A DNA stretch of 48,820 nt, from positions 1-48,820 of the forward strand of contig JASMLC010000012.1 of assembly GCA_030748895.1 (NCBI GenBank), read 5' to 3'. The position numbers were made by a program, and so were the translations under genes. The stretch comes from Candidatus Poseidoniia archaeon (GTDB lineage: Archaea; Thermoplasmatota; Poseidoniia; MGIII; CG-Epi1). How positions within the stretch are numbered: position 1 is the first letter of the stretch; the number at the start of each line of letters is the position of its first letter. Of the stretch, positions 1 to 28,703 are shown piece by piece. Below the pieces are notes generated by a model that was given only the letters and a program-made list of their open reading frames with translations, had not been told where the DNA came from and ran no database searches.

Positions 1-1
1 G

Positions 2-1258
2 GGTCGCGAACATGTGCGCGAGAAACTCGAGAAGCGCGACCCCTATCGCGTCGAGCCACTGGAACGGGACGAAACAAAATTCCTGATCGAGGGTAACGAC
101 GCGGTCGCGCTCGGCTCACTCTATGGTGGCGTCGCGATGGTCTCGTGGTACCCGATTACGCCCTCGTCGTCGCTCGCTGAGACAATCGAGAACTACCTGC
201 CGCAGCTGCGTACGGGTGATGACGGTGCAACCTGTGCAGTCATCCAGGCCGAGGACGAGATTGCCGCAATCGGGATGGTCGTCGGTGCCGGCTGGGCTGG
301 TGTACGCGCAATGACCTGCACCTCCGGACCGGGGATTTCACTCATGTCAGAGATCATCGGGCTCGCCTACTACGTCGAGGTGCCGGCGGTTATCTGGGAT
401 GTGAACCGCGTCGGCCCATCGACCGGGATGCCGACACGTACCCAGCAGAGTGACGTTATCAGTCTCTATAGGGCAAGCCATGGCGACACACAGCACCCGG
501 TGCTAATTCCCGGCACCGCTGAGGAGTGCTTCGAGTTCGGCTGGCGCGCTCTTGACTGTGCCGAGCGGCTCCAGACGGTGGTCTTCGGCTTCAGTGACCT
601 TGACTTGGGAATGAACCACTGGGTTTGCTCCAACTTCACGTATCCAGAAAAGCTGGACCGCGGCAAGGTGGTGCGGACGCAGGAACAGCTTGACGCCTTC
701 GAGGAGTACGGGCGATATCTCGACGTCGATGGCGACGGCATCTGCTGGCGCACTCTCCCCGGTAGCGGGCTGGCCCCCTACCTCGCCCGCGGTACTGGCC
801 GCAATGAGAAAGGCGTCTACTCCGAACGGCCTGAGGACTACCGCAAGAACATGGTGAGGCTGAAACGCAAGATCGAAGGGGCTCGTGACACGTTGCCGAA
901 ACCTGTCCTGCGGGAAGAGCCAGAACTGCAGCTAGGTATCATCTACTACGGGTCAATGGAGAACAGCATCCAGGAGATTGATGCCATGCTCGAGGCTGAT
1001 GGCCTAAAAGTGAGCCAGTGCCGCGTCCGCGCACTGCCACTGCACTCCGAGGTGGAAGAATTCGTAAGGCGACACGAAATGATTATAGTACTTGAGATCA
1101 ACCGAGATGGGCAAATGTACAAACTCATGCGTGCCGAGCTGCCGAGCGAGCTGGTGCCACGTCTGCGCTCGGTCGCCTACAGCGACGGCATCCCGCCGCG
1201 CGCGCAGGTCTACACTGACGCAATCTGCGCTGAGATACAGAAATTCGAGGCGGCTTGA
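2..1258 (+). CDS. korA: 2-oxoacid:ferredoxin oxidoreductase, alpha subunit (gamma-alpha fused type), 5'-truncated by window edge
   Basis: Alpha subunit of a 2-oxoacid:acceptor oxidoreductase, which decarboxylates a 2-oxoacid with CoA to an acyl-CoA and reduces ferredoxin. The frame is open to the left edge. A GTG lies at 14, but the residues before it are also coding, so the true start is outside the window. The visible part begins with the linker typical of the ~600-aa Halobacterium-type KorA, which carries a fused N-terminal gamma domain; that domain would be the missing ~190 aa. The pyrimidine-binding motif YPITPSSSLAE lies at about 149-180 and a TSGPGISLMSE segment follows, both standard for the alpha chain. 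Its stop overlaps the start of the beta subunit (TGATG). Substrate class (pyruvate, 2-oxoglutarate or branched-chain) cannot be read from the sequence. Paralogous to the alpha chain at 4115. Confidence 0.9.
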   Translation, partial: GREHVREKLEKRDPYRVEPLERDETKFLIEGNDAVALGSLYGGVAMVSWYPITPSSSLAETIENYLPQLRTGDDGATCAVIQAEDEIAAIGMVVGAGWAGVRAMTCTSGPGISLMSEIIGLAYYVEVPAVIWDVNRVGPSTGMPTRTQQSDVISLYRASHGDTQHPVLIPGTAEECFEFGWRALDCAERLQTVVFGFSDLDLGMNHWVCSNFTYPEKLDRGKVVRTQEQLDAFEEYGRYLDVDGDGICWRTLPGSGLAPYLARGTGRNEKGVYSERPEDYRKNMVRLKRKIEGARDTLPKPVLREEPELQLGIIYYGSMENSIQEIDAMLEADGLKVSQCRVRALPLHSEVEEFVRRHEMIIVLEINRDGQMYKLMRAELPSELVPRLRSVAYSDGIPPRAQVYTDAICAEIQKFEAA

Positions 1259-2283
1259 TGGTAAAACTCAACGTGCTTGGCCGGCCTCTCGACGACTACC
1301 GCGGATTCAAGTCGACACTCTGCTCCGGCTGCGGCCACGACGCCGTCTCGAGTGCGATAATCTCTGCAGCATGGGCCAACGGGCTGCCGCCCGAGTCGCT
1401 GGCCAAGATGTCCGGCATTGGCTGTTCATCGAAGACGTCAGCCTATATCCTGGGGCGGAGCCACGGCTTCAACACCGTCCACGGACGGATGCCATCGGTA
1501 ACGACTGGCGCGGCCATGGCGAACCGTGACCTCAGCTTCATCGCTGTCTCAGGAGATGGGGATACCGCTGCAATCGGCATCGGCCAGTTCATCCACGCCA
1601 TCCGGCGCAACCTGAACATGGTTTACATCGTCGAGAACAACGGCGTTTACGGCCTGACGAAAGGGCAGTATTCGGCAACCGCCGAGGAAGGCTCGCAAAA
1701 GCGCAAGTCGCCGCCGAACCAGACACAGCCGATTGACCTTTGCAAGCTCGCGATTACGCTCGGCTGCTCGTTCGTCGCACGCTCGTTTTCGGGCTCGCGC
1801 CAGCAGCTGGTGTCTCTAGTGCGCGCCGCACTGTCACACCGCGGGATGGCGGTGATAGACGTTATCTCGCCCTGCGTGACATTCAACAATAATGAGGAGT
1901 CGCTCAAATCCTACGGCTACGTCAAGTCGCACGACGAGGAACTGCACATCGTCGACTACATTCCGCACTTCGAGCCGATAACAGAGGTAGATGTACCGGC
2001 GGGCGAATTCCGTAAGGTGCAGCTGCACGACGGCTCGTTCATCCGGCTCGAGACAATTGATGAGGCACACGACCCTGCCAGCGAGATAGCTGCACTCAAT
2101 GCACTCCACCGCGCCGAGAACGCGCAGAAGCACGTCACCGGGCTGCTCTATTTCAATCCCGGCAAGCCGACACTCGACGAGACGCTCAACTTGGTCGAGA
2201 CTCCACTGGCTGACCTACCGGACAAAATGTTGAGACCTCCCAAGAAAACCCTGGATGAACTATTAGCTAATTTCAGGGCTTGA
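1258..2283 (+). CDS. korB: 2-oxoacid:ferredoxin oxidoreductase, beta subunit (thiamine diphosphate-binding)
   Basis: Beta subunit partner of the preceding alpha chain, 341 aa. It carries the Cys motif CSGCGHD near the N terminus (codons around 1321-1338), which supplies ligands for a [4Fe-4S] cluster, and the thiamine diphosphate motif SGDGDTAAIG followed about 25 residues later by ENNGVYGLTKGQ. ATG at 1258 overlaps the upstream stop by one base and is preferred to the TTG one codon earlier. This two-subunit enzyme needs no separate delta ferredoxin subunit, unlike the four-subunit enzyme at 3825-6713. It ends the transcription unit: the next gene begins 81 bp downstream and differs strongly in base composition. 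Confidence 0.92.
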   Translation: MVKLNVLGRPLDDYRGFKSTLCSGCGHDAVSSAIISAAWANGLPPESLAKMSGIGCSSKTSAYILGRSHGFNTVHGRMPSVTTGAAMANRDLSFIAVSGDGDTAAIGIGQFIHAIRRNLNMVYIVENNGVYGLTKGQYSATAEEGSQKRKSPPNQTQPIDLCKLAITLGCSFVARSFSGSRQQLVSLVRAALSHRGMAVIDVISPCVTFNNNEESLKSYGYVKSHDEELHIVDYIPHFEPITEVDVPAGEFRKVQLHDGSFIRLETIDEAHDPASEIAALNALHRAENAQKHVTGLLYFNPGKPTLDETLNLVETPLADLPDKMLRPPKKTLDELLANFRA

Positions 2284-2364
2284 TCTACTCTCAACACTCA
2301 TGTCTTTTTATGAAATGAACCCCTGACTTTATCTATCCCTATTATCTCAATCCAACAGGCAGAA

Positions 2365-3684
2365 ATGAACCGAATTATTCCGATTGGACTGATGATTGTG
2401 CTGGCTACAACCGGATGTACCGGTCCCGGGGGATTGTTTGGCGATGATGAGGAAAGAGACGAACCTTTTGTTTATGACCTGACCATTGATGACCTCTGGG
2501 CCGATATTCCTGGAAATATGACCCCGGCTTCTGATATTGTCAATATGACTTATGGACTTGAGAAAAGTCCAAGAGTAACGAACTTCACTGAGATTGGATA
2601 CAGTATCAACGGCCAGCCATTGTTATTGCTTGAATTTGGGGATTATGATCCCTCAGTTCCAACTGTCTATTTCGTTGCCGCCCAGCATGGAAACGAGCCA
2701 GCATCAGTTGATTCAGCCTATCTTATGGTTCGCCATTTTGCAAGAGGAATACCTGAAGAGATAGACCCAATTCTGGATGAGATTAATCTGGCAATCCTGG
2801 TAATGGTCAACCCCGACGGACGTGATAATGGAACACGAGGAAATGCGAACGGTACTGACCTGAACCGTGATCACATGAAATTGATGGAACCAGAGGGAAA
2901 GGCAATGCATCGTGCATTTGACAGTGTGCATCCCTCGGTCACAGTGGATATGCATGAATTCGGAGGAGCTGGAACGGTCATTTTCCAGGTAGCTGCTCCC
3001 CAGAATCCAGCAACCCATCACGATGTTATTTTCGCTTCCTACAACTTGGAAACGACTGTCATAGACTCGATCAGTGAGGAATGGGGAATTGGTAGCGTTA
3101 CGAATTATCCGCCCACAACCAGTTCACAGGATTCCAGTATCCATCGTAATCACTTTGCGGTACACGGTTCTACAAGTTTACTTTTTGAATCTGCAGTCTC
3201 CGAGGAATACTCGGAAAGAGTCAGGCTCCAGGCCTGGGCTGCACTGGCTGTGATCGGTGAAGTGGCTGAAAACCCAGATTACTATCTGGAGGCGCGTGAA
3301 TCTTCAGATGAGGAAGGTCAAGAAGGAAATAATTTTGTTTATGCCTATCTCTTTGAATGCAGCGATCCTGCAGCTGTGGAGACAATCCGGATCCTGAAGG
3401 ATCATGGATTCTATCTGGGTGTAAAGTCAGATAACGAAGGGGTTTCCTCAATCCATTATGAGACCTTCGTGCCAAGGAGCAATTTTCCAAATGGCACTAT
3501 CGTAGTTCCCATGAACCAGATTGGATGGAGGTCCCTTAGTGAACTGATGGAATATACTTCAGAAAAAGACCAGCATTATACCAATTCACCCAAAGATAGA
3601 GGAATGGACGCTTGGCGTGCCCTCAACTCCGTGGAATTCAATGTCCAGACAGTGTCCTGTCTGAACCCCGAGAAACTCCTTTAA
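2365..3684 (+). CDS. M14-family zinc metallocarboxypeptidase, predicted lipoprotein
   Basis: Secreted or membrane-anchored zinc carboxypeptidase-like protein, 439 aa. The N terminus is a hydrophobic signal ending in a lipobox (ATTGC, Cys near residue 18), followed by a Gly/Asp/Glu-rich linker. M14 features are visible: HGNE (His108, Glu111) as the first two zinc ligands, DMHE with His197 as the third, an Asn-Arg pair in DLNRD for the substrate carboxylate, and LLFESA (Glu275) in the position of the catalytic glutamate. It probably trims peptides outside the cell, supplying amino acids. The gene is clearly more AT-rich than the Kor genes on both sides and sits alone between two Kor operons, which suggests acquisition by transfer. 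Exact specificity is unknown; succinylglutamate desuccinylase-like members of the superfamily are an alternative. Confidence 0.85.
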   Translation: MNRIIPIGLMIVLATTGCTGPGGLFGDDEERDEPFVYDLTIDDLWADIPGNMTPASDIVNMTYGLEKSPRVTNFTEIGYSINGQPLLLLEFGDYDPSVPTVYFVAAQHGNEPASVDSAYLMVRHFARGIPEEIDPILDEINLAILVMVNPDGRDNGTRGNANGTDLNRDHMKLMEPEGKAMHRAFDSVHPSVTVDMHEFGGAGTVIFQVAAPQNPATHHDVIFASYNLETTVIDSISEEWGIGSVTNYPPTTSSQDSSIHRNHFAVHGSTSLLFESAVSEEYSERVRLQAWAALAVIGEVAENPDYYLEARESSDEEGQEGNNFVYAYLFECSDPAAVETIRILKDHGFYLGVKSDNEGVSSIHYETFVPRSNFPNGTIVVPMNQIGWRSLSELMEYTSEKDQHYTNSPKDRGMDAWRALNSVEFNVQTVSCLNPEKLL

Positions 3685-3824
3685 TGGGTGGTGAAATACC
3701 TATAGTAATGGTACGACATATCAGTTTGTTTCACATGTTTGCCTCCCGGGCCGAGTGGGTTATTTCCCTGTATCCTGGAGAGACTGTAACATGGCTTGCT
3801 CACAACCCACATGGATGTGCCTGA

Positions 3825-4115
3825 TTGTCAACCCTGCGTACCCCTCTCGACCGGAAGCAGGTCCGGCTACCTCTGGGACAAGTGCATATCATCTCCGAGC
3901 GCTGCAAGGAGTGTGAATTCTGCTGGGAATACTGCCCCAAGGGTGTGCTCGAACCCTCGACTCGCCGCAACGCCAAGGGTTACCACTATCCCCAAATCGT
4001 AGAGGGTAAACTCTGCGTCGATTGTGGTATGTGCAATGTAATCTGTCCCGAATTTGCCATCTACACTGTTGAGACTAGCGATGAATTGGCCGAAGCTACT
4101 CAGGAATCAGCCTAA
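3825..4115 (+). CDS. korD: 2-oxoacid:ferredoxin oxidoreductase, delta subunit (2x[4Fe-4S] ferredoxin)
   Basis: Small dicluster ferredoxin, 96 aa. Two CxxCxxCxxxCP motifs (CKECEFCWEYCP and CVDCGMCNVICP) bind two [4Fe-4S] clusters and carry electrons from the catalytic beta subunit to the outside acceptor. It is the first gene of the KorDABC-Hdr-Etf operon; its stop overlaps the KorA start (TAATG). An in-frame stop at 3822-3824 lies directly before the TTG at 3825, so TTG is the earliest possible start. The next in-frame alternative is GTG at 3882, which would remove a basic, conserved-looking N-terminal segment. The TTG start is therefore likely but not proven. Confidence 0.88.
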   Translation: MSTLRTPLDRKQVRLPLGQVHIISERCKECEFCWEYCPKGVLEPSTRRNAKGYHYPQIVEGKLCVDCGMCNVICPEFAIYTVETSDELAEATQESA

Positions 4116-5272
4116 TGGTCATCGGCGCCGAAACGGGAGCAGTGCTCACTGGCACCCACTTCCTGAAGGGTGACTACGCTGCCGCCGAGGGTGCTATTGC
4201 CTCCGGTTGCCGCTTCTTTGCCGGCTATCCCATCACTCCCGCCACCGAGGTCGCTTCGCGCATGGCTGCGCGACTCGACCAGCTGGGGGGCAACTACATC
4301 CAGATGGAAGATGAACTGGCATCGATGGCCGCCCTGCTCGGTGCTTCCAACGCCGGTGTTAAGTCCATGACTGCCACCAGTGGCCCAGGACTCTCACTAA
4401 TGCTTGAGAACATTGGCCTTGGCTTCATGACCGAAACACCCTGCGTAATCATCAACGTACAGCGTGGGGGGCCGTCGACGGGACTGCCCACGCTGGTGGG
4501 TCAGCAGGATATGCTTCAGGCACGCTGGGGCAGCCACGGCGACTATGAGACCGTGGCCTATGTCCCTGCCAGTGTACAGGAAATGTTCGACCTGACGGTG
4601 AAAGCCTTCAACACATCCGAGGCACTGCGGCTGCCAGTCTTTGTGCTCGCCGACCAGGCCGTAGGTCACATGACAGGGCGCTTGGTCATACCGCCCGCCG
4701 ATGATGTAGAAGTGGTGAATCGCGCCACACCTACTGGCAAATCCAACCGTGACTTCAAACCTTTCGACGCCAGCCAAGGCGACATACCACCTATGGCCCA
4801 CGCCGGCGAGGGGTACGGGATCCACGTCACCGGACTCACTCATGATGAGCGTGGTTACCCCGCAATCACCTCCACAGCGCAAGCACGCTTGCAGCAGCGA
4901 CTGCTGGGCAAGGTGCGTAACCGTGTCGACGAACTGGTAATGGTCGAGGAGATACAGACAGACGATGCAAAGCTCATCGTAATTGCCTATGGCTCGCTTT
5001 CACGCTCGGTGCTCCAAGCTATCAACATTGTGCGCGAAGAAGGACTTAAGGTTGGGATGTTGAGACTCATCGCCGCCTGGCCTTTCCCCAGTGCCATCGT
5101 CCGCGCCGCTGCCGAGCGGGCACAATCGCTGCTGGTGGCCGAGATCAATATGGGGCAGATGATACATCCAGTACGTGAGGTTACTAGCTGTCCGGTCCAT
5201 TCCTATCACCACGCCGGAGGTGAGCTATCGACGCCACAGGAACTGGTTGCGCGTATCCGGGAGGTGTACTAG
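4115..5272 (+). CDS. korA: 2-oxoacid:ferredoxin oxidoreductase, alpha subunit
   Basis: Alpha subunit (385 aa) of a four-subunit 2-oxoacid:ferredoxin oxidoreductase. GYPITPATEVASRMA is the pyrimidine-binding motif and ATSGPGLSLMLEN follows. There is no fused gamma domain; gamma is encoded separately at 6168. The layout delta-alpha-beta-gamma is typical of the KGOR family (2-oxoglutarate to succinyl-CoA) and of some branched-chain enzymes, so 2-oxoglutarate is the leading guess for the substrate but is not proven. ATG at 4115 overlaps the korD stop by one base, and the stop overlaps the GTG start of korB, so the subunits are translationally coupled. Confidence 0.92.
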   Translation: MVIGAETGAVLTGTHFLKGDYAAAEGAIASGCRFFAGYPITPATEVASRMAARLDQLGGNYIQMEDELASMAALLGASNAGVKSMTATSGPGLSLMLENIGLGFMTETPCVIINVQRGGPSTGLPTLVGQQDMLQARWGSHGDYETVAYVPASVQEMFDLTVKAFNTSEALRLPVFVLADQAVGHMTGRLVIPPADDVEVVNRATPTGKSNRDFKPFDASQGDIPPMAHAGEGYGIHVTGLTHDERGYPAITSTAQARLQQRLLGKVRNRVDELVMVEEIQTDDAKLIVIAYGSLSRSVLQAINIVREEGLKVGMLRLIAAWPFPSAIVRAAAERAQSLLVAEINMGQMIHPVREVTSCPVHSYHHAGGELSTPQELVARIREVY

Positions 5273-6171
5273 TGGACACCAGTCCCAACCAGCTTGCCCA
5301 CGCACTCGAGACCCACCACCATCCTGTCGATGAGGTGTTGCGCAAGGAGCGTATACCCCACATCTGGTGTCCTGGCTGCGGCCTGGGTCCCGTCACCAGC
5401 GCTTTCACACGCGCCCTCGAACAGGCAGACACCCCTCCGTCAAAACAAGTAGTAGTCTCAGGCATCGGTTGCAGCGGACGCACCGCCGGCTACGTCAACA
5501 TCGACTCCTACCATACCACCCACGGCCGTGCAGTGGCTTTTGCCACCGGCCTCAAGCTCGCCAAGCCGGAGCTTGGCGTCACGGTTTTTTCAGGTGACGG
5601 CGACCTCTTCAGTATAGGTGGCAACCATATCATCCATGCCGCACGACGCAACCTGGACCTCACTATCCTCTGCAACAACAACTTCATCTATGGCATGACT
5701 GGAGGCCAGATGGCAGCAACAACTCCCCACGAGGCACGCTCGACCACCTCACCTCTGGGGAACTTCGAATATCCCTTCAACCTACCCCAGATCATGTCTG
5801 CTCTGGGTGCCACCATGGTCAGCCGCTGGACCTCACTTCATGTCCGGCAGCTTACCGACGCTATGGTCAGTGCCCTCAACCACGACGGCCTCGCATTCGT
5901 CGAGATCGTTTCACCCTGCCCCTCGGGCTACGGCAAGCGCAACGAATTTGTCGACGGCCTGAGCCATATGCGCCACTTCCGCGAGTATGCGCATGTCGAC
6001 CATGATGCCGATTTATCAACCATCGACCTCGACTTCGCCTCCGACAAGCCAGTGGTACTGGGCAATTTCGTCAAGCTCGATAAGCCGTCGTACCTTGTCG
6101 TAAAAAACCGCATGCTCGAGGAACAGGGCATTGACAGACAGACTTCCTCGCGATTGCGAGAATCTGCATGA
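5272..6171 (+). CDS. korB: 2-oxoacid:ferredoxin oxidoreductase, beta subunit
   Basis: Thiamine diphosphate-binding beta subunit, 299 aa. It shows WCPGCGLGPV near residue 30 for the iron-sulfur cluster, SGDGDLFSIGGNH for Mg-diphosphate binding, and NNNFIYGMTGGQ completing the GDG...NN motif. GTG start at 5272 overlaps the korA stop (TAGTG), with a GGAGG Shine-Dalgarno sequence about 10 bases upstream. The C terminus overlaps korC by four bases (ATGA). It is paralogous to the KorB at 1258 but shorter at the C terminus. Confidence 0.92.
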   Translation: MDTSPNQLAHALETHHHPVDEVLRKERIPHIWCPGCGLGPVTSAFTRALEQADTPPSKQVVVSGIGCSGRTAGYVNIDSYHTTHGRAVAFATGLKLAKPELGVTVFSGDGDLFSIGGNHIIHAARRNLDLTILCNNNFIYGMTGGQMAATTPHEARSTTSPLGNFEYPFNLPQIMSALGATMVSRWTSLHVRQLTDAMVSALNHDGLAFVEIVSPCPSGYGKRNEFVDGLSHMRHFREYAHVDHDADLSTIDLDFASDKPVVLGNFVKLDKPSYLVVKNRMLEEQGIDRQTSSRLRESA

Positions 6172-6713
6172 CTCGGCACGAACTACGATGGAGTGGCTAC
6201 GGTGGCCAGGGAATTGTCACAATGGGTCTCGTTTTTGGCCGTGCCGCCGTAATGGAGGCGCAGTGGGACGCGGTGATGACCGAAGCCTATGGTCCTGAAA
6301 TTACTGGTGGGTGGTCACGCGCCGATCTTGTCATGAGCTCTGATACAGTCGAGTACCCATTAGTGACGCGCCCCGAGGCGCTGGTAGTGATGTCACAGGA
6401 CGGCCTCGCGCGCTTTACCGATGAAGTGCGTGATGACGGGCTGATCCTGGGTGAGATTGATCTGGTAAAGTGTGATGATCCACGCTACCACCCGGTACGC
6501 GCGTTATCACTCGCAGAAGAACTTGGTAAACGCGTGGTGGCCAATTCGATTATGATTGGTGCGCTGGCAGCAGCGCTGCCCATCCTGCCCCTTGAATATG
6601 TGCGTACCGAACTTTTGGCAGGGGTACCTCCAAAGACCGTCGAGCTGAATGAAAAAGCCTTTGAAGAAGGTGTTGCGCAGGGAGAGGCCATCCGGGCCAA
6701 GCTGGAGGCCTGA
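6168..6713 (+). CDS. korC: 2-oxoacid:ferredoxin oxidoreductase, gamma subunit
   Basis: Gamma subunit, 181 aa, the usual length of this domain (PF01558). The N-terminal WSGYGGQGIVTMG is the hallmark glycine-rich motif, followed by EAYGPEITGGWSRADLV, a conserved block of the family. It completes a four-subunit oxidoreductase with the three preceding genes. ATG at 6168 lies in an ATGA overlap with korB. Its stop overlaps the HdrA-like start (TGATG), so the redox enzyme and the Hdr module are one translationally coupled operon rather than chance neighbours. Confidence 0.9.
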   Translation: MTRHELRWSGYGGQGIVTMGLVFGRAAVMEAQWDAVMTEAYGPEITGGWSRADLVMSSDTVEYPLVTRPEALVVMSQDGLARFTDEVRDDGLILGEIDLVKCDDPRYHPVRALSLAEELGKRVVANSIMIGALAAALPILPLEYVRTELLAGVPPKTVELNEKAFEEGVAQGEAIRAKLEA

Positions 6714-9700
6714 TGCCTGTAGCGCGTTCCACCGTGATGGTGATTGGCGGCGGTATCGCCGGCATCCAGGCTGCTCTTGACTGTGCCGAAGCCGGGGCCA
6801 AAGTGGTGATGGTCGAGAAGTTCGCCTCTATCGGCGGCAAGATGGCTGCTCTTGACAAGAACTTCCCGACACTTGACTGTTCAGTCTGTATCGAAGCCCC
6901 TCGCATGTCTGAGGTGGCTGAACATCCACATATCGAAATCTTGGCACAGGCCGAACTAGTAAAACTCAAGGGCGAGGCGGGGCACTTTACCGCTACCGTC
7001 CGCCAGCATGCCAGTTATGTCACAGACGCCTGCACACGCTGTGACGACTGCTCAGATGCCTGCCCTGAAGCCCAGCCCAACCTCTTCGACGAAGGACTTG
7101 CTACGCGCAAGGCGATTTACACTCCATTCCCCCAGGCGGTACCAACACCCTACGTCGTCGATATGGAAAGCTGTCTCAACGCTCCACCCAACTACCTACC
7201 GTGTGACCGCTGCATGCGCGCCTGCGAGGCAGACGCCATTGACTTCAGCATGCCCGCAGGGCGCGTGGTACAGCGCCAGATAGCATCAGTGATCGTGGCA
7301 ACTGGCTTCGCCATGCAGGACCCCCGGGCGGTGGACGAGTACAGCTATGGCAGTCATCCCGACATCCTGACTGCGATGGAGTTCGAGCGACTCGTAAGCG
7401 CTGCCGGACCCACCGAAGGCGAAATTCTGCGGCTGTCAGACATGCAGCACCCCAAATCACTTGCCTTCATCTACTGTGTGGGCTCGCGCTCGACCAGGCA
7501 TGCTGCCTACTGTTCGCGAGTCTGCTGCATGTACTCCACAAAGCAGGCTATTCAGGCCCTCGATCATGGCGTAGCCAATGTCACAGCCTACTACATGGAC
7601 ATTCGCGCCTTTGGCAAGGAATTCGATGAATTTCACCAGCGCGCCATCGAGATGGGGGCGCACTATATCCGCGGCCGGCCAGCACGCGTTTATCACGACG
7701 GAAAGAAGCTGAAAGTACGTTACGAAGATACCGAAACTGGCCGTGTCACCGAAGCAAACCATGATCTGGTGGTGCTCGCCAACGCACTGGTTCCGCCAGC
7801 AGGGCTCGAAGAGCTTGCCACAGTACTCGGGCTGGAGCTGGGTGACGATGGTTTCCTGGCGACTCCCGAACAATGGGGCGATCATGTGCTGAGCCTGCGC
7901 GACGGGATCTACTTTGCTGGCTGCGCCACAGGTCCACGTGACATCCCTGATTCGGTAGCCGAAGGGTCAGCGGCAGCGGCAGCGGCGCTGGCACATCTTG
8001 GTAAACGGATCTGGCCAGTGGAAGAAGAAGTAGAGCCCATCCCGGCCGATGGCGAGCTGCGCACAGGCGTCTTTGTCTGCGACTGCGGTTCCAATATCGC
8101 TGGTGTGGTTGACGTGCCGACGGTGGTCGACTACGCCTCCGGACTTCCAAACGTGGTCCACGCCGAGGAGGTCATGTTCGCCTGTGCCGGAAATACTCAG
8201 GGTGACATCACCAACCGTGTCAAGGAACTTGGACTCAATAGACTCGTTGTAGCGGCCTGTTCGCCTAAAACTCACAATAATACTTTCGAAAAGGTCTGCT
8301 CCAGGGCAGGTCTCAACCCCTACCTGCTCGAGATGGCAAATGTTCGCAATCACAATTCCTGGGTTCATAAGAAGGAGCCGGAGGCCGCCACTGCCAAGGC
8401 CCAGGACCAGGTGCTCATGGCAGTACACAAGGCCAAGGAGCTCAGGCCCCTCGAGCCGTCCAATCACAACGTCACCCAGACTGCTGTGGTCATCGGTGGC
8501 GGTATTGCCGGCATGACTGCTGCCACAGCCCTGGCGAAACAGGGGCACGAAGTGCATCTTATCGAGCGTGAGAGTGCCTTGGGTGGGAGACTGCAGCAAC
8601 TTGATCGAATTGCTCCCGCAGACCTGCCAGCGTCGGAGCTGCTGGCGCGCCAGCAGCGCGCGCTGTCCGATGCCGGTGTAGAGATCCATCTCTCCACCAC
8701 TGTGTCCGGAGTCGATGGTTTCATCGGCAATTTCGATGTTACCCTCAGCGACGGTGTCACGCTTCCAGCCGGCGCCATCATACTCGCTATGGGCGCCCGC
8801 GTCCATCAACCTGCCAGCTTCGGTTACGGCGATGACCCCAAGGTCATCACGACCCTCGAACTAGAGGACGGGCTCGAACAGCGGAAGGAGGAGCGGATCA
8901 CCTTCATCGCTTGCGTTGGGTCACGTAATGAAGAGCGTGGGTGCTCACGCTTCTGCTGCACCGCCATGGTACATCAGGCACTGCGGCTGAGGCGACTTGG
9001 CAAGCAAGTGCGCATACTCTACCGCGACCTACGTACTTTCACTCGCCAAGGAGAGGAGCTCTACGCCGAAGCCTGTAGCGCCGGTGTCCAGTTCTTCCAG
9101 TGGCCCCAGTCCACCATCACCGAGGAGGCGGTGCGCTGGGAGCGGAATGAAGCAATCTTCTACGATGAACTTGTGGGTCACGAGGTGGCACTGCCCACCG
9201 ACCTGCTGGTGCTCGCTGTAGGCTTGGTACCTGACACCTACTCCGAGGCACAGATGGTAAAGGTGGCCACATCACAGGACGGTTTCCTGCTCGAATTGCA
9301 TCCCAAACTGGGACCGGTCGAAACCCAGGTACAGGGCGTCTATCTCTGTGGCACAGCCCAGTACCCCAACGACGTGCGTGGTACCGTAGCTCAAGGGCTG
9401 GGTGCCGCCGCCCGTGCAGGAACGCTGCTCGCTCGCGATGCCATCCAGGCCGAGCCCTACACCGCACGTATCGTTACAGATCGCTGTACAGGCTGTACGC
9501 TCTGTGAACGCGTCTGTCCTTACACTGCCATCGAGATGGTACCATGGGAGGAGAACCGCGCCGGCAAGGTGGCACACGTCATCGAGGCTGCCTGCACCGG
9601 TTGCGGTGCCTGCGCTGGCGGCTGCCCTGTCGGTACTATCGACATGCCTGGTTTCACCGATGAACAGATTATGGCACAGGTCGATGCCGCCACCGCCACG

Positions 9701-10141
9701 CATCCCGAAGAGAAGGTGGTTACCTTTGCATGCAACTGGTGCTCCTATGGCGGTGCTGACACAGCAGGTATCGCCAAGCTTCAGTACCCCCCCTCATCGC
9801 GGCTTATCCGTACCATGTGCTCGGGGCGCGTCGCTGAAAAATTTGTCATGCGTGCCTTTGAACGTGGCACTGCGGCAGTACTGATCACCGGATGCCACCT
9901 CAGCGATTGCCACTACATCAATGCCAATCACCAGACGGACAAGCGAATAAAAATATGGAGACGCAAACTCGAACGCAGGGGTATCGACCCCCAGCGGCTC
10001 CAGCTCAAGTGGATCAGTGCCTCCGAGGGACCGCAATTTGCCGCCAAGATGCGTGAGATAGATGACTTCATCCATACCCTGGATGCCTCCGAACTCGACT
10101 CAACACAGGAGAAAATGGGTGGAGGGAAGACGGCCGCATGA
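6713..10141 (+). CDS. HdrA-HdrA-MvhD fusion (QmoA/QmoB-like) FAD iron-sulfur electron-transfer protein
   Basis: Very large heterodisulfide-reductase-A-type protein, 1142 aa. Order of parts: FAD-binding GGGIAG (residues 12-17); the HdrA motif around LDCSVCIEAPRM; a first ferredoxin-like insert (CTRCDDCSDACP, then CDRCMRACE); a typical HdrA iron-sulfur start, VFVCDCGSNIAG, near residue 455; a second FAD site GGGIAG near 595; two [4Fe-4S] motifs near 925-970 (CTGCTLCERVCP, CTGCGACAGGCP); and a C-terminal MvhD domain from about residue 1005 (CNWCSYGGAD). This equals two HdrA units plus MvhD in one chain, or QmoA fused to QmoB. HdrA flavins can bifurcate electrons between ferredoxin and a high-potential acceptor. 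SD GGAGG precedes the ATG, which overlaps korC. No hydrogenase or formate dehydrogenase genes are present to supply MvhD, so Kor or Etf is the likely partner (inference). Confidence 0.9.
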   Translation: MPVARSTVMVIGGGIAGIQAALDCAEAGAKVVMVEKFASIGGKMAALDKNFPTLDCSVCIEAPRMSEVAEHPHIEILAQAELVKLKGEAGHFTATVRQHASYVTDACTRCDDCSDACPEAQPNLFDEGLATRKAIYTPFPQAVPTPYVVDMESCLNAPPNYLPCDRCMRACEADAIDFSMPAGRVVQRQIASVIVATGFAMQDPRAVDEYSYGSHPDILTAMEFERLVSAAGPTEGEILRLSDMQHPKSLAFIYCVGSRSTRHAAYCSRVCCMYSTKQAIQALDHGVANVTAYYMDIRAFGKEFDEFHQRAIEMGAHYIRGRPARVYHDGKKLKVRYEDTETGRVTEANHDLVVLANALVPPAGLEELATVLGLELGDDGFLATPEQWGDHVLSLRDGIYFAGCATGPRDIPDSVAEGSAAAAAALAHLGKRIWPVEEEVEPIPADGELRTGVFVCDCGSNIAGVVDVPTVVDYASGLPNVVHAEEVMFACAGNTQGDITNRVKELGLNRLVVAACSPKTHNNTFEKVCSRAGLNPYLLEMANVRNHNSWVHKKEPEAATAKAQDQVLMAVHKAKELRPLEPSNHNVTQTAVVIGGGIAGMTAATALAKQGHEVHLIERESALGGRLQQLDRIAPADLPASELLARQQRALSDAGVEIHLSTTVSGVDGFIGNFDVTLSDGVTLPAGAIILAMGARVHQPASFGYGDDPKVITTLELEDGLEQRKEERITFIACVGSRNEERGCSRFCCTAMVHQALRLRRLGKQVRILYRDLRTFTRQGEELYAEACSAGVQFFQWPQSTITEEAVRWERNEAIFYDELVGHEVALPTDLLVLAVGLVPDTYSEAQMVKVATSQDGFLLELHPKLGPVETQVQGVYLCGTAQYPNDVRGTVAQGLGAAARAGTLLARDAIQAEPYTARIVTDRCTGCTLCERVCPYTAIEMVPWEENRAGKVAHVIEAACTGCGACAGGCPVGTIDMPGFTDEQIMAQVDAATATHPEEKVVTFACNWCSYGGADTAGIAKLQYPPSSRLIRTMCSGRVAEKFVMRAFERGTAAVLITGCHLSDCHYINANHQTDKRIKIWRRKLERRGIDPQRLQLKWISASEGPQFAAKMREIDDFIHTLDASELDSTQEKMGGGKTAA

Positions 10142-11298
10142 GTGAGGGTACACCTCTCCGACTCGATGACCAGCTCTGGGAGCAACTCAACGCTGTCACC
10201 GATGGTGCAGCCAACGCCTGCTACCAGTGCGGGACCTGTACTGCCACCTGCCCCTGGCCTGAGCTTAGCCAGGTCAATCTTTCAGTGCGCTACCACCTGC
10301 GCCGCGCCCATCTCGGACTCACTACGGGAGGTGAAGGGCTCTGGCGCTGCACAGCATGCAAGGAATGTGAGGCAGGCTGTCCCCGTGAGGTCCCAATCGT
10401 CGACGTCCTGCGTGGATTGCGGGGCCTCGACCTGCATAATCGCCAAGCCCCGTCCGTGCTGGTTGACTCACTCTGGTCCATCTATGAGAACTACAATCCA
10501 TATGGCCAGCCACGACTGGAACGCCATGCCTGGGCAAAAGGGCTGGACGTGCCCATCCTGGACGCAGGTGAGACCATCCCCGTACTCTACTATGTCGGGT
10601 GTGCTGCCTCCTACGACAGGCGACTGCAGGCGCTACCTCGCGCTGTCGCACGCCTGCTCAATGCCAGCGGTATCGAGTGGGCCACCCTCGGTCCTCGCGA
10701 GCGCCATGACGGCGACCTCATCGCCAGTACCGGGGATGACGCATTCTTCGACTGGTATGCCCAGCGCAACATCTCACTGCTGGAAGCCACCGGCGCCAAG
10801 GTCATTGTAGCCACTTCACCCCACACCGTCGAAGCCCTCAAGCGCTACCCCTGGAAGAAACGACCAGAGATAATGCATTACACTAAATTCCTTAAAATAC
10901 AGGTCGACGACAAAAAACTCGAGTTCAAAACTGGCGGCGGCCCTCTTGTCACCTATCACGATCCCTGCTATCTGGGGCGCTGGAACCAGGACTACGATGC
11001 CCCGCGCGAACTACTCGCTGCAGCAGGGCTCCAGCTGCGAGAGATGGAGCACACCCGTGGTGATGCACTCTGCTGTGGTGGTGGCGGCGGCCGCATATTC
11101 CAGGATTCCCTGCCCGGAGAGCGCTTCAGTGAACCGCGCATGGCTGAAGCTGCCACGACCGGGGCAGAAGTGATGGTCACCACCTGTCCATTCTGCATCC
11201 AGAACTTCGAGGATAGCGGTCGCACCCACGCACCTGACATGCAGGTGCGGGACCTGGCCGAGATACTCGCAGAAGCGCTTCCGCTAGGAGAAGCCTGA
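10138..11298 (+). CDS. HdrC-HdrB fusion (Fe-S and CCG-domain subunit of a heterodisulfide-reductase-like complex)
   Basis: Fusion of an HdrC-like ferredoxin domain and an HdrB/HdrD-like CCG domain, 386 aa. The N terminus has CYQCGTCTATCPW (Cys28, 31, 34, 38) and CTACKECEAGCP near residue 71, binding two [4Fe-4S] clusters. The CCG part starts at YYVGCAAS near residue 153. The second CCG motif is intact: YHDPCYLGR, then LCCGGGGGR near 310, then CPFC. The first has lost its central cysteines: GPRERHDGDL stands where the membrane paralogue at 26677 has GEAEMCNGDL, and ATSPHT where that one has TACPHC. At most one noncubane cluster can therefore form. It overlaps the preceding gene by four bases and EtfA by one. 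No transmembrane segment is present, so the complex is likely soluble. Confidence 0.88.
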   Translation: MSEGTPLRLDDQLWEQLNAVTDGAANACYQCGTCTATCPWPELSQVNLSVRYHLRRAHLGLTTGGEGLWRCTACKECEAGCPREVPIVDVLRGLRGLDLHNRQAPSVLVDSLWSIYENYNPYGQPRLERHAWAKGLDVPILDAGETIPVLYYVGCAASYDRRLQALPRAVARLLNASGIEWATLGPRERHDGDLIASTGDDAFFDWYAQRNISLLEATGAKVIVATSPHTVEALKRYPWKKRPEIMHYTKFLKIQVDDKKLEFKTGGGPLVTYHDPCYLGRWNQDYDAPRELLAAAGLQLREMEHTRGDALCCGGGGGRIFQDSLPGERFSEPRMAEAATTGAEVMVTTCPFCIQNFEDSGRTHAPDMQVRDLAEILAEALPLGEA

Positions 11299-12299
11299 TG
11301 GCCCATGAATCTTCATGTGATGGTGACCTGTGGGTCTATCTCGAACGGACACCCCAGGGCACACTGGCCCCAGTGTCGCTCGAACTGCTGGGTCGAGGTC
11401 GCGAGCTGGCGGCCGAGCTCGACTGTGGCGTAGCAGGGGTCCTGCTCGGGTGCGATAAACTGGAACCACTGACCAAACAGGCAATTGCAGGAGGTGCCGA
11501 CACCGTCTTCGTCGCCACCCACGAACTGCTTGCAGAGTATTCCACTGATGCCTGGACCATGGTCCTTGACAACCTGCTGGGCGAACATCGTCCCGCTATC
11601 CTGCTTATTGGTGCCACTTTCAACGGCCGTGACCTGGCCGGGCGACTCGCCGTACGCACTCATACCGGGCTGACGGCAGACGTAGTACGCCTCGAGATCG
11701 ACCCTAAAACAAAACTGCTGCTCTCTGGTGTTCCGGGCTTTGGCGGCTCGATTATAGCTATGATCCTCTGCCCTGAGCACCGCCCTCAGATGGCCACCGT
11801 GCGTCCCGGCATCTTCTCTGCCCGTGACCCTGAACCCCGGCGCAAAGGCGACATTGTTCCGGTGCAGGTGGAGCTCCTTCCGGACAAGATCCATACCACC
11901 CTGCGCCAGCGCGAACTGCAAGAGACCATTGACATCACCACCGCCGACCGTGTGGTGGCAACTGGAGTGGGAGTTGCAGGACGCTTTGCACAATGGCAGG
12001 AACTGGCGGAACAGCTTGGCGCTGCGGTAGGTGCCACGCGACCGCTGGCTGACGAGGGTATCGTTGACCGTGCGCAGCAGATTGGCTCCACGGGCGTCTC
12101 GATAAAGCCTGAACTGCTGATCTGCGCCGGCATCTCAGGCGCGGCCCACTTCACTGCAGGAATTGCTGACGCTGGCACGGTAGTGGCCATCAACACCGAC
12201 CCTGATGCTCCGATATTCGAACATGCGGACTACTGCTTGGTGGGCGATGCCGACGAAATACTGCCGCCATTGCTCGCAGCGCTGACGGAGGACGCGTGA
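11298..12299 (+). CDS. etfA: Electron transfer flavoprotein, alpha subunit
   Basis: Alpha subunit of an electron transfer flavoprotein, 333 aa. The C-terminal FAD-binding domain is recognisable from IGSTGVSIKPELLICAGISG and VVAINTDPDAPIFEHADY. The family consensus has GQTGK at the first site, so the variation GSTGV is worth noting. EtfA with EtfB shuttles electrons between dehydrogenases and an acceptor and in some lineages bifurcates electrons. The gene overlaps the HdrCB stop (TGATG), has a nearby GGAGA, and overlaps etfB by four bases. Its placement in an Hdr/Kor operon rather than with acyl-CoA dehydrogenases is unusual. It is a distant paralogue of the EtfA at 29462. Confidence 0.9.
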   Translation: MAHESSCDGDLWVYLERTPQGTLAPVSLELLGRGRELAAELDCGVAGVLLGCDKLEPLTKQAIAGGADTVFVATHELLAEYSTDAWTMVLDNLLGEHRPAILLIGATFNGRDLAGRLAVRTHTGLTADVVRLEIDPKTKLLLSGVPGFGGSIIAMILCPEHRPQMATVRPGIFSARDPEPRRKGDIVPVQVELLPDKIHTTLRQRELQETIDITTADRVVATGVGVAGRFAQWQELAEQLGAAVGATRPLADEGIVDRAQQIGSTGVSIKPELLICAGISGAAHFTAGIADAGTVVAINTDPDAPIFEHADYCLVGDADEILPPLLAALTEDA

Positions 12300-13090
12300 A
12301 GCAGATCGTGGTCTGTTTGAAAGTGGTGCCCAAGCCGGGCGAGGTCAAGTATGACCAGGAGACCAACACGCTTGACCGCTCCGCTGCTGAGAATCAGGTC
12401 AATCTCTCAGACAAACACGCCCTCGAGGCGGCTCTGACGCTCAAGGCTGTCGAGGATGCAGATGTGACCGTGATCTCGATGGGGCCTCCAATGATCGACT
12501 CCGAGCTCAAGCTGATGCTGGCCATGGGCGCTGACCGCACCATCTTACTCTCCGACCGCGCCTTCGCCGGCGCAGATACCTACCCCACCTCACGCACCCT
12601 CGCTGCTGCTATCGGCAAGCTCGCACCGGTGGACCTGGTGCTCTGTGGTGAGGAGTCTTCCGACAGCAGTACCGGACAGGTGCCTCCCGGCATCGCCGAA
12701 TGGCTCGACTGGCCCCAGATTACCTACGCCACGACCCTGGCTGTGGAGGCGAATGACCTGGTCGCGACACGGGAGATCGAGGGAGGGCATGAGATCCTGG
12801 CTGCGCCGCTGCCTGCTGTAGCGTCAGTGGTGCAGGGTTCGCAGCAGGTGCGCTTCCCTGACTTTGGGCGATTCGCTGAACTGGAGAGTCATGATATCGA
12901 GATATGGTCGGCAGCTGACCTGAAACTCAAAACAGAAGAGGTGGGACTTCCCGGTTCCTGTACTACTGTTGGAGATCTTGTGGAGACCGCCCCCCCAGAA
13001 CGGAAACGGGAGTTCATCACTGGCAGTCCGCCGGAGATGGTGTCTCAACTGGTGGAAAGACTGGCCGGACTTTTTGCCCCGCGAGTGTAG
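12296..13090 (+). CDS. etfB: Electron transfer flavoprotein, beta subunit
   Basis: Beta subunit of ETF, 264 aa, the normal length. It begins IVVCLKVVPKPGEVKYD, typical of the family, and contains the nucleotide-loop region VDLVLCGEESSDSSTGQVP, where FAD (bifurcating ETF) or AMP (ordinary ETF) binds. I cannot decide between those classes by eye. GTG start at 12296 overlaps etfA and follows SD GGAGG. It is the last gene of the Kor-Hdr-Etf operon; the next gene has its own TATA-like box. Confidence 0.9.
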   Translation: MKQIVVCLKVVPKPGEVKYDQETNTLDRSAAENQVNLSDKHALEAALTLKAVEDADVTVISMGPPMIDSELKLMLAMGADRTILLSDRAFAGADTYPTSRTLAAAIGKLAPVDLVLCGEESSDSSTGQVPPGIAEWLDWPQITYATTLAVEANDLVATREIEGGHEILAAPLPAVASVVQGSQQVRFPDFGRFAELESHDIEIWSAADLKLKTEEVGLPGSCTTVGDLVETAPPERKREFITGSPPEMVSQLVERLAGLFAPRV

Positions 13091-13118
13091 TAACCCATAC
13101 TCATACTAGTGGTAAATG

Positions 13119-26676: not shown

Positions 26677-28677
26677 ATGGACCCCTACCACGACTACTTC
26701 GGAATCGAGTGGTACTGGCTACTCGGAGCATGGGCGGCACTCTCGATTGGAGCGCACTTCTGGCAGGTGGGCTACATCGTGCAGCTTATCCGACTCGGGA
26801 AGCCGGACGACCGTTTCAACGCGTGGCCGGTGCGGCTGCGCGAGTTCCTGCGCGACTGGCTCGGCCAGCGCAAGGTGGTCGAGGACCGCCTGGCAGGCGG
26901 CGCGCACGCGCTGATTTTCTGGGGATTCCTGCTGCTGGTGAGCGACGTGCTCGATTTGGGAACGGGCGGAATGCTGGCAGGATTTCTCGAAGATATATAT
27001 TTAAAAGATTTCTGGAACCTGATTGTCGATATTGGCTACGCCATGGCTGGCGTCGGTATCGCCGTCGCGCTCTTCCGACGTGTAGTACTGCGACCCGCCA
27101 AGTTGCGCGGCGCGAGCATCGAGGGCGAGCTAATCCTGCTTGCCATCATGGGCATCGTCCTGACCGCGTTCCTGCTCGAGGGGGCAGCGATGCTCGGCCC
27201 CGCAGGCGACTCGCAGGCGCGCGACGGCTGGGAGCCGGTCGGCGCGCTCTTCGCCAGCTTCATGGCGGGGATGGCGCCCGCCACGCTGCAGGCGGTGGTC
27301 GACGCCAGCTACTGGCTGCACATGCTGCTGATTGGCGGCTTTCTCATCGAAATCCCGCAGTCGAAGCACTCGCACCTGCTCGGGACGATCCCCAACGTGC
27401 TGTTCCAGGACCACGCCCCGCTCGGGAAGCAGCAGCCGCTGCAAATGGCCCCGGATGGCCGTGCGGTGAGCACTGACGAGCTGGACATCGAAAATCTCAC
27501 GCTCGGCGCCAGCAACTACGCGGACTTCAGCTGGCGCCAGCTCTCCGACGGCTGGGCCTGCACGGCGTGCGCGCGGTGCCAGAATGCCTGCCCGGCATTC
27601 GCGAGCGGCAAGGGGCTGAACCCGATGCAAATCGTGACGGACGTCAAGGATTACGGCTGGGAACACGGGCGGCAGCTGCTCGCGGGCGAAACCCCGCAGG
27701 AGAGCATGATTGACCGCTTCACCGAAGAGGCAGTCTGGGCCTGCACCACCTGCTTTGCGTGCGTTGACGCCTGCCCGGTGCACATCGAGCACGTACCGAA
27801 GCTGACCGACGCGCGGCGGCACCTGGTGATGGAGGCCGCGCAGTTCCCGGAGGAATTGCAAGGCGTCTTTGAAAATCTGGAGCGCAACTCCAACCCGTGG
27901 GGCTTCGGCGCGCACACGCGTGGCGACTGGGCCGAAGGCCTTGGCCTCAAGGTGGGCGAGCCGGCCGAGTACCTCTTCTACGTCGGCTGCGCAGGGTCGT
28001 TCGACAACCGCAACAAGCAGGTCTCGCGCACGCTGGCGCAGCTTATGCAGCAGGCGGGCGTCGACTTCTCGATACTGGGCGAAGCCGAGATGTGTAACGG
28101 CGACCTTGCCCGCCGCAGCGGTAACGAGTTCCTGTTCCAGATGCTGGCGGAGATGAACGTAGCCACACTACAGGAGGCCGGCGTGAAGAAAATCGTGACT
28201 GCCTGCCCCCACTGCTTCCACACGCTCGGCAAGGAGTATGGCGATTACGGCGGCGACTTTGAAGTCATCCACCACACCCAGCTGCTGGCCGAGCTACGCG
28301 AGCAGGGCAAGTTGCAGGTTGGCGACCGCGGTACTACCCTGACCTACCACGACCCGTGCTACATGGGACGCATCGACGGCAGCCACGACGCTCCCCGGCA
28401 GGCGCTCGGTGGCGAAATCCTGGAGATGCACCGCTGTCGCGACAAGACATTCTGCTGCGGCGCCGGCGGGGCACGCATGTGGGTCGAGGAGGATGCTGAC
28501 AAGCGGGTCAACCTGATACGTGCGCAGGAAGCGCTGGAAACCGGCGCCGACGAGGTCGGCACCGGCTGCCCCTTCTGCATGACCATGCTGACCGACGGGA
28601 TGAAGACTTTGGGCTCCGAAATGGTGGTGCGCGACGTTTCGGAAATCATGGCTGAGCAGCTCGAGCGTGATAACTAA
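26677..28677 (+). CDS. Membrane NarI-HdrD-like Fe-S oxidoreductase (candidate ETF:quinone oxidoreductase)
   Basis: 666-aa fusion. The first ~230 residues hold five membrane helices with the NarI/cytochrome-b-like pattern (YWLLGAWAALSIGAHFW, HMLLIGGFLIEI). Then a double [4Fe-4S] domain follows (CTACARCQNACP near 295, CTTCFACVDACP near 356). The C-terminal two CCG motifs, YVGCAGSF / EMCNGDL / TACPHC and YHDPCYMG / FCCGAGG / GCPFC, are both complete and would bind noncubane clusters. Proteins of this build sit beside etfBA and pass ETF electrons to menaquinone. The etfB and etfA genes follow directly here, so that role is likely. A gap of 26 bp with a weak TATA-like element separates it from etfB. 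Confidence 0.88.
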   Translation: MDPYHDYFGIEWYWLLGAWAALSIGAHFWQVGYIVQLIRLGKPDDRFNAWPVRLREFLRDWLGQRKVVEDRLAGGAHALIFWGFLLLVSDVLDLGTGGMLAGFLEDIYLKDFWNLIVDIGYAMAGVGIAVALFRRVVLRPAKLRGASIEGELILLAIMGIVLTAFLLEGAAMLGPAGDSQARDGWEPVGALFASFMAGMAPATLQAVVDASYWLHMLLIGGFLIEIPQSKHSHLLGTIPNVLFQDHAPLGKQQPLQMAPDGRAVSTDELDIENLTLGASNYADFSWRQLSDGWACTACARCQNACPAFASGKGLNPMQIVTDVKDYGWEHGRQLLAGETPQESMIDRFTEEAVWACTTCFACVDACPVHIEHVPKLTDARRHLVMEAAQFPEELQGVFENLERNSNPWGFGAHTRGDWAEGLGLKVGEPAEYLFYVGCAGSFDNRNKQVSRTLAQLMQQAGVDFSILGEAEMCNGDLARRSGNEFLFQMLAEMNVATLQEAGVKKIVTACPHCFHTLGKEYGDYGGDFEVIHHTQLLAELREQGKLQVGDRGTTLTYHDPCYMGRIDGSHDAPRQALGGEILEMHRCRDKTFCCGAGGARMWVEEDADKRVNLIRAQEALETGADEVGTGCPFCMTMLTDGMKTLGSEMVVRDVSEIMAEQLERDN

Positions 28678-28703
28678 TACAGCGGCCTGACTGTGCGCGG
28701 CGC

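Follow-up and report, generated by a model that had tools for sequence, protein, structure and literature searches.

The window, by which we mean the whole 48,820-nt stretch of DNA that was analysed, carries eight genes at positions 3825-13090 of the + strand, in the order KorD-KorA-KorB-KorC, HdrA-HdrA'-MvhD, HdrC-HdrB, EtfA, and EtfB, and the seven overlaps between successive ORFs are 1, 1, 4, 1, 4, 1, and 4 bases. Every assignment in this octet is backed by Pfam and NCBIfam profiles. The Kor set consists of the 2-oxoacid oxidoreductase delta subunit KorD (3825-4115), a dicluster ferredoxin whose two [4Fe-4S] motifs are kept among 66 homologues; the alpha subunit KorA (4115-5272), with POR_N and PFOR_II domains and a score of 521.7 bits against NF006412 (cut-off 411); the thiamine diphosphate-binding beta subunit KorB (5272-6171), with a TPP_enzyme_C domain; and the gamma subunit KorC (6168-6713), with a POR domain. 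They are followed by an HdrA-HdrA'-MvhD fusion of 1142 aa (6713-10141; NF040770 HdrA2, 1149.6 bits, cut-off 1100), which is HdrA2-like with a C-terminal FlpD/MvhD domain, an HdrC-HdrB fusion of 386 aa with Fer4 and CCG domains (10138-11298; hereafter HdrCB), EtfA (11298-12299; ETF and ETF_alpha domains), and EtfB (12296-13090; ETF domain). The ORF coordinates and profile matches bear out the eight overlapping genes of the initial annotation. Long ORFs suggested KorC-HdrA and KorA-KorB fusions, and a frame-by-frame check found no fusion. Among the cassette loci whose reading frames were inspected, no gene fusion between the Kor, Hdr, and Etf modules was found.

We scanned one genome per GTDB species for the same HdrA family and found 77 loci, which belong to at least six named phyla and include both bacteria and archaea. 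The gene order is identical in all 77 loci, 47 of which are complete, and contig ends account for the missing genes in all but 2 cases. Because 77 loci in the genome collection share the same order, the co-occurrence of the octet is more than chance and not a local accident. The initial annotation had suggested a check of gene order in related genomes, and the modules there are together and collinear, not scattered. The cassette proteins also diverge in parallel, and the distance matrices of seven of them correlate with r values of 0.82-0.93, a level reached by 0 of 999 permutations. A search of the flanks for a ninth gene found no recurrent or constant extra neighbour. The earlier remark that no hydrogenase or formate dehydrogenase accompanies these genes holds for the cassette, since no such input module occurs in the octet or as a recurrent neighbour in the flanks. 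The conserved octet likewise encodes no mid-potential acceptor module (FdhAB, FrhB, FlxABCD, or hydrogenase), and Kor is the only mid-potential partner module in it.

The domain layout of the large HdrA protein, with two FAD domains and a C-terminal MvhD, agrees with its annotation as an HdrA-HdrA-MvhD fusion. Residues 1-430 form an HdrA FAD domain with an inserted ferredoxin and without the N-terminal domain, and they are followed by an HdrA N-terminal domain (residues 448-585), a second FAD domain (590-900), a C-terminal ferredoxin (910-990), and MvhD (1000-1123). C59 is the equivalent of Cys197, and K277 is the lysine after CCMY, which we take to be Lys409 of HdrA, with the role assumed for that residue. 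The flavin-adjacent lysine and cysteine positions were mapped on 5ODC, and a general Arg/Lys rule for the bifurcating flavin has been described (PMC9232219). K277, C255, C267, C271, and C272 are present in 67/67 HdrA homologues; among the homologues covering each site, the Cys197 equivalent, the CCMYxxK lysine, and the cysteines of the inserted ferredoxin, the C-terminal ferredoxin, and MvhD are invariant. Both ferredoxins and the N-terminal cluster completed by Cys197 of the partner HdrA are present, and one cysteine of the N-terminal domain, C529, varies. The double HdrA thus keeps the lysine that contacts the flavin in bifurcating HdrA, together with almost all of the cluster ligands.

The family also has a signature in the inserted ferredoxin domain, CLNxPPNYxPCxRCxxxC, which reads CLNAPPNYLPCDRCMRAC in the window (residues 154-171; 7172-7225, + strand). 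Of 80 cassette loci, 75 carry it, the other HdrAs that the pattern matched all lack it, and the CLNxPPNYxPC loop is diagnostic of the cassette HdrA versus known fused HdrA. This loop could put Kor at the low-potential exit instead of at MvhD, a point against the model that we favour below. Two HdrA units in one chain are likewise found in the fused HdrA of ANME archaea and in Moorella HdrABC-MvhD-MetFV (PMC9012536), and there, as here, Cys197 and the N-terminal domain are lost complementarily between the halves, whereas only in the cassette does the Cys197 half come first. The fusion to MvhD is common to the HdrA-HdrA-MvhD proteins surveyed in archaea (PMC11237513). The partners of the cassette HdrA are Kor and ETF, in contrast to MetFV or FdhAB for the known fused HdrAs.

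The domain layout of HdrCB fits the HdrC-HdrB fusion named in the initial annotation, but its identity does not, as its sequence, fold, and cluster ligands are of the EtfD type. HdrCB has two cubane [4Fe-4S] sites (C28-C38 and C71-C81) and a noncubane site, D2, formed by C277, C312, C313, C350, and C353 with His229 as a ligand; the five cysteines and His229 of D2 are present in 66/66 homologues. The first CCG cluster site is lost in the window protein, and serine replaces the first CxxC cysteine in 64/66. The AlphaFold model (pLDDT 92) matches EtfD (9ojn) in Foldseek with an E value of 2.1e-25 and a TMq of 0.82, and EtfD is the nearest solved relative both by sequence and by fold. Two cubanes, CCG domains, and a His-ligated D2 are also described for EtfD/EMO, FadF, and DgcB, and a loss of D1 ligands like that in the window protein is reported for FadF and DgcB (PMC13083937). 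Unlike EtfD/EMO (PMC13083937), HdrCB is soluble and lacks the membrane domain and haem, and its gene lies between those of HdrA and EtfAB; no region for a membrane domain or haem b, as used in menaquinone reduction, is present in its sequence or model. A plasmid search with HdrCB returned only EtfD/DgcB-type relatives of <60% identity, and the relative on an Azoarcus plasmid sits inside an ETF operon. The HdrB-type pair of catalytic noncubane clusters with bridging cysteines is absent, and an HdrB-type disulfide reductase is ruled out by the cluster ligands. By sequence, ligands, and predicted fold, HdrCB is a soluble relative of EtfD (ETF:menaquinone oxidoreductase) with a His-ligated, non-catalytic noncubane site. 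Because of this site, the thiol or disulfide acceptor that was initially considered is unlikely.

EtfA and EtfB have bifurcating ETFs as their closest solved relatives, and EtfA falls in the bifurcating-ETF clade. In the Ldh-Etf complex, LctC R205 contacts N5 of the bifurcating FAD and the R205A substitution abolishes bifurcation. At this position, valine is found in 62/63 cassette homologues (Val145 in the window), whereas a second EtfA of the window, outside the cassette, retains the arginine. EtfB keeps the RxFxG NAD(H) motif (R88, F90, and G92 in the window; R in 55/58, F in 58/58, and G in 53/58), and its AMP/FAD site motif is preserved in large part: in the b-FAD segment DGDTAQVGP, D, T, Q, and V are kept and the second D is lost, and the SPT motif is partly conserved (SCT in the window). 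RxFxG is shared with CarDE, LctBC, Bcd-Etf, and Thermotoga EtfABCX, from which the cassette ETF differs in its valine and in the lack of an N-terminal ferredoxin on EtfA. The missing arginine disfavours ETF as the bifurcation site and indicates that bifurcation, if any, would be located at HdrA. Of the bifurcation by Hdr or ETF envisaged at first, the Hdr part has its known requirements kept in HdrA, and the ETF part is disfavoured. With the NAD(H) motif kept, NAD+ instead of quinone could be the end point of the ETF branch.

A candidate route from ETF to menaquinone lies in the same window, outside the cassette, at 26677-30367 of the + strand, where a membrane EtfD/EMO-like protein (26677-28677) is accompanied by its own EtfB (28704-29465) and an EtfA ORF (29171-30367). 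A full-length membrane EtfD homologue, judged by reading the matches, is present in 23/30 owner genomes. COX1 is found in 20/30 owner genomes, including that of the window, which has terminal-oxidase genes.

Taken together, these features suggest, with close to an even chance in our estimate, one soluble HdrA-centred bifurcating oxidoreductase with Kor as the donor and ETF as the high-potential acceptor. Kor would oxidise a 2-oxoacid with CoA, and the substrate is probably 2-oxoglutarate or a related acid; the best family matches of Kor are generic 2-oxoacid and 2-oxoglutarate models. From KorD, the electron pair would reach the bifurcating FAD in the first half of HdrA by way of the MvhD/ferredoxin arm. 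The high-potential electron would then move through the EtfD-like HdrCB to EtfAB, and ferredoxin would be the likely second product. EtfAB may then reduce menaquinone via membrane EtfD in many owners, or possibly NAD+. The plan would then resemble that of HdrABC-MvhAGD, with Kor substituted for hydrogenase or formate dehydrogenase and ETF for CoM-S-S-CoB. We infer that the proteins would form a physical complex, that Kor would dock on this arm of HdrA and be wired to the flavin as described, that electrons would flow in this direction, and that the flavin would actually bifurcate. The single machine of the initial annotation is supported by modules that stay together and in order in relatives, and its mechanism is narrower than was proposed.

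The cassette shares the HdrA FAD, the inserted and C-terminal ferredoxins, MvhD, and the conserved cysteines and lysine with HdrABC-MvhAGD, HdrABC-FdhAB, and ElpABC-HdrABC of methanogens. It differs from them in having two HdrA halves in one chain, added Kor and EtfAB, no hydrogenase, formate dehydrogenase, or F420 module, and an EtfD-type protein without a disulfide-reducing site in place of HdrB. With 2-oxoglutarate:ferredoxin oxidoreductase (Kor/Oor) it shares the complete KorABCD set, including the TPP domain and the dicluster ferredoxin. In phenylglyoxylate dehydrogenase (Pad), which is NADH-linked, electrons leave a Kor-type core by another outlet. Unlike in Kor/Oor or Pad, the outlet of the cassette Kor would be HdrA-HdrCB-EtfAB. 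Since 2-oxoacid oxidation alone is sufficiently reducing for ferredoxin, with no need of bifurcation, the energetic gain is not obvious, which weighs against the favoured model.

It is possible, and we put it forward tentatively, that the cassette represents a new class of flavin-based bifurcating complex. As a 2-oxoacid:ferredoxin,ETF oxidoreductase, it would have an internally asymmetric core of HdrA that receives the electron pair from Kor, and an EtfD-type module that relays the high-potential electron to EtfAB. It would occur in both prokaryote domains and serve cells that respire oxygen and anaerobic cells alike. Such a complex would join three systems that are usually handled separately, namely central carbon oxidation, Hdr bifurcation, and ETF metabolism. 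No earlier description of a Kor-Hdr-Etf operon was found in the open-access papers searched. In the available part of a survey of 12 bifurcating enzyme types (PMC6085437), the same building blocks occur, namely the HdrA and Etf classes; no Kor-Hdr-Etf type is described there, and the terms '2-oxoglutarate' and 'HdrA EtfAB' are absent from that text. If the proposal is true, energy-yield models would change for many uncultured lineages of Chloroflexota, Thermoplasmatota, Nitrososphaerota, and Asgard archaea. HdrA-type bifurcation, which is seldom considered for cells that respire oxygen, would also have a place in them. The cassette also offers a clear test of the swapping of donor and acceptor modules by HdrA.

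Other readings of the cassette are unlikely to different degrees. HdrA and HdrCB could conduct both 2-oxoacid electrons to ETF, and onward to menaquinone or NAD+, without bifurcation, which would make the oxidation irreversible and spare ferredoxin in oxygen-respiring cells. The loss of the bifurcating arginine from ETF, the EtfD-type site of HdrCB (read in EtfD as an adaptation to aerobic conditions), the COX1 genes of two thirds of the owners tested, and energetics that demand no bifurcation all fit such a wire. We regard it as unlikely because what HdrA needs for bifurcation is invariant, down to the clusters of the inserted ferredoxin on the way to free ferredoxin, and a simple wire could do without these features. 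Confurcation, in which Kor would deliver electrons of low potential and reduced ETF those of high potential (e.g., from acyl-CoA dehydrogenases), to merge at HdrA and pass to a mid-potential acceptor, is in our view quite unlikely. HdrA chemistry is reversible in principle, EtfB keeps its NAD(H) motif, and the signature loop could be a docking site for KorD on the low-potential arm, but the octet has no module for the mid-potential acceptor, and reaching NAD+ through EtfB would bar ETF from also acting in the usual manner as high-potential donor.

Mere co-regulation, with Kor, the Hdr-type protein, and ETF needed together and not joined in a single complex, appears improbable. Separate enzymes can share tight operons, and the lack of inter-module fusions is consistent with this explanation and counts against the favoured one, but co-regulation accounts poorly for the invariant order in both domains, the parallel divergence of the parts, the HdrA loop specific to the cassette family, and the gene for an ETF-docking type of protein between HdrA and EtfAB. 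The reductive direction, in which low-potential electrons from HdrA drive 2-oxoacid synthesis (reductive carboxylation) while ETF is reduced, is the most improbable, as no electron-pair donor module is encoded and two thirds of the owners tested, the window's genome among them, have COX1, even though Kor enzymes can work both ways and some owners are without COX1.

Apart from the eight-gene cassette, the window contains a divergent KorA2-KorB2 pair upstream (14-2283, + strand), outside the conserved octet. The large HdrA is absent from the genus and family mates of the window's genome. Mis-binning of the contig was considered and rejected; the contig belongs to its genome because its P5C dehydrogenase is 92% identical to that of a genus-mate.

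The eight genes of the cassette were confirmed on the forward strand by open reading frame (ORF) and domain searches: KorD (3825-4115), KorA (4115-5272), KorB (5272-6171), KorC (6168-6713), HdrA-HdrA'-MvhD (6713-10141), HdrC-HdrB (10138-11298), EtfA (11298-12299), and EtfB (12296-13090). From KorD to EtfB, successive ORFs overlap by 1, 1, 4, 1, 4, 1, and 4 bases, the positions of the eight ORFs are exactly those of the initial annotation, and the domain searches are consistent with its gene names. The window is an entire 48,820-base contig of a 1.4-Mb genome that is 97% complete. Upstream of the cassette lie a divergent second KorA-KorB pair (14-2283) and an apparent zinc-carboxypeptidase gene (2365-3684). 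The G+C content is approximately 58-60% across the Kor-Hdr-Etf region (1-13100) versus 62-69% over most of 13100-48820, in keeping with a separate history for the left part of the contig. Further downstream, a 2660-aa protein (30765-38747) with matches to bacterial TSP3 repeats, a transglutaminase core, Ig-like domains, and MG2 is probably a large surface protein.

The large HdrA is absent from the five genus mates and 15 other family members examined, many of whose genomes are incomplete, and three distantly related genomes in the phylum encode it at 53-57% identity, each flanked by the rest of the full set. An alignment of HdrA from the window and these three genomes was used to scan the GTDB species, each represented by one genome. 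Two HdrA peptide patterns matched 160 relatives, and the best 80 loci were analysed, so that the sample describes the nearest HdrA relatives and not all HdrA. Among these best 80 of 160, 77 loci belong to the cassette family and three carry a more distant HdrA. The initial annotation had suggested comparing gene order in relatives, and tblastn of all parts shows that the octet order is unbroken in 77 of 77 cassette loci, 47 of which contain the complete eight-gene set. Nearly all of the absent genes are lost beyond contig ends, the two absences without this explanation being EtfA in one locus (L090) and KorC in another (L097). By record title, the bacterial owners are Chloroflexota (Anaerolineae, Dehalococcoidia, and Thermoflexus), Elusimicrobia, Rokuibacteriota, Coatesbacteria, and a Planctomycetota bin, and the archaeal owners are Heimdallarchaeota, Nitrososphaerales, Terraquivivens, Geocrenenecus, and Thermoplasmata. 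Correlations between the distance matrices of seven of the cassette proteins have r of 0.82-0.93, values to which shared species history adds because the control was permutation only. The main split of the concatenated tree separates an archaeal from a bacterial side, with the window as a long branch between them. No ninth gene accompanies the octet in a majority of loci, and extra Kor copies lie nearby in ten.

The closest solved relative of the HdrC-HdrB fusion (HdrCB) is Mycobacterium smegmatis EtfD (E = 4.5e-46, versus only 5e-5 for HdrB). Its AlphaFold model (pLDDT 92, pTM 0.91) also matches EtfD (E = 2e-25, TM 0.82) better than HdrB (1e-7), although the fused-chain layout biases this comparison toward EtfD. 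In EtfD, the non-catalytic noncubane cluster D2 has a histidine as completing ligand, and electrons from ETF are thought to enter at D2 in the EtfD relatives FadF and DgcB, which lack D1 (PMC13083937). The five D2 cysteines and the histidine are all retained in 66 of 66 HdrCB homologues. The D1 site is changed in all homologues, with Ser at the first CxxC cysteine in 64 of 66, and is gone in the window. In addition, a plasmid-borne relative lies within an Azoarcus ETF operon. On this evidence, the likeliest role of HdrCB is that of an ETF-linked module, and the EtfD-type sequence and fold, the D2 histidine, and the altered D1 disfavour a disulfide reductase. The fusion lies where the initial annotation placed it, but its nearest solved relative is EtfD.

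HdrA-HdrA'-MvhD is an asymmetric double HdrA. Its second half has the N-terminal domain, C-terminal ferredoxin, and MvhD, and lacks two cofactor-site residues, Cys197 and the lysine that follows CCMY in the first half. The cofactor ligands are invariant in the homologues covering them, with the sole exception of C529, an N-terminal-domain cysteine. HdrA-HdrA-MvhD fusions are known in archaea (PMC11237513), and complementary loss between halves has been described for the fused HdrA of ANME archaea and Moorella, with the ANME halves in the opposite order (PMC9012536). A loop in the inserted ferredoxin domain, CLNxPPNYxPCxRCxxxC, for which we found no description in the open-access literature searched, is present in 75 of the 80 loci of the cassette sample and in none of the other pattern-matched HdrA. 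Because this domain is the exit toward ferredoxin partners in methanogens (PMC12350162), the loop may point to a dedicated partner.

The nearest relatives of both EtfA and EtfB are bifurcating ETFs, and EtfB retains the RxFxG NAD(H) motif. In a lactate dehydrogenase complex, bifurcation is abolished when one EtfA arginine is lost (PMC9232219). This arginine is replaced by valine in 62 of 63 cassette EtfA proteins and is retained in the second EtfA of the window. The cassette ETF may still exchange hydride with NAD(H), since the arginine variant of that complex retained NADH oxidation when given an artificial acceptor (PMC9232219).

The cassette parts can fill all sites of an HdrABC-Mvh-like plan, in which Kor would replace hydrogenase or formate dehydrogenase as electron-pair donor, HdrA would be the bifurcation site, EtfD-type HdrCB and EtfAB would form the high-potential branch, and soluble ferredoxin would be the low-potential product; we infer both that Kor sits on the donor arm and that ferredoxin is the product. 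Rival readings of the same parts are a non-bifurcating wire, confurcation, and operation in the reductive direction. The building blocks of the proposed bifurcating assembly are known. We found no description in the open-access literature searched of the Kor-Hdr-Etf combination, its conservation, or the switch from HdrB to an EtfD type, nor did we find the combination in the consulted passages of a survey of 12 bifurcating enzyme types (PMC6085437). There is a real chance that the cassette could prove to be a new bifurcating class.

At least one COX1 match, by a Pfam model that may also catch related oxidase-family enzymes, occurs in 20 of 30 distinct owner genomes tested, and the genome of the window has two COX1 genes and no NuoF homologue. 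As judged by our inspection of the match extents and open reading frames, 23 of the 30 encode a full-length membrane EtfD homologue. At 26677-30367, the window encodes a membrane EtfD/EMO-like protein with an EtfD-like D1 motif (CN and CPHC), and its own EtfB and EtfA come immediately after it. Genomes G000 (contig C3, approximately 42,000-49,000; L084) and G003 (contig C9, 1-4,000; L086) contain a second Hdr-like cluster, in which HdrA is short and FAD-only. In G003, HdrB, HdrC, and a GcvH-like protein come after the short HdrA, an arrangement resembling sHdr sulfur-oxidation clusters with a lipoate-binding protein. In G000, the neighbours of a similar short HdrA include CCG proteins, EtfB, EtfA, and a membrane EtfD-like protein, and a possible tie between sHdr and ETF/EtfD in the genus of the window deserves a look.
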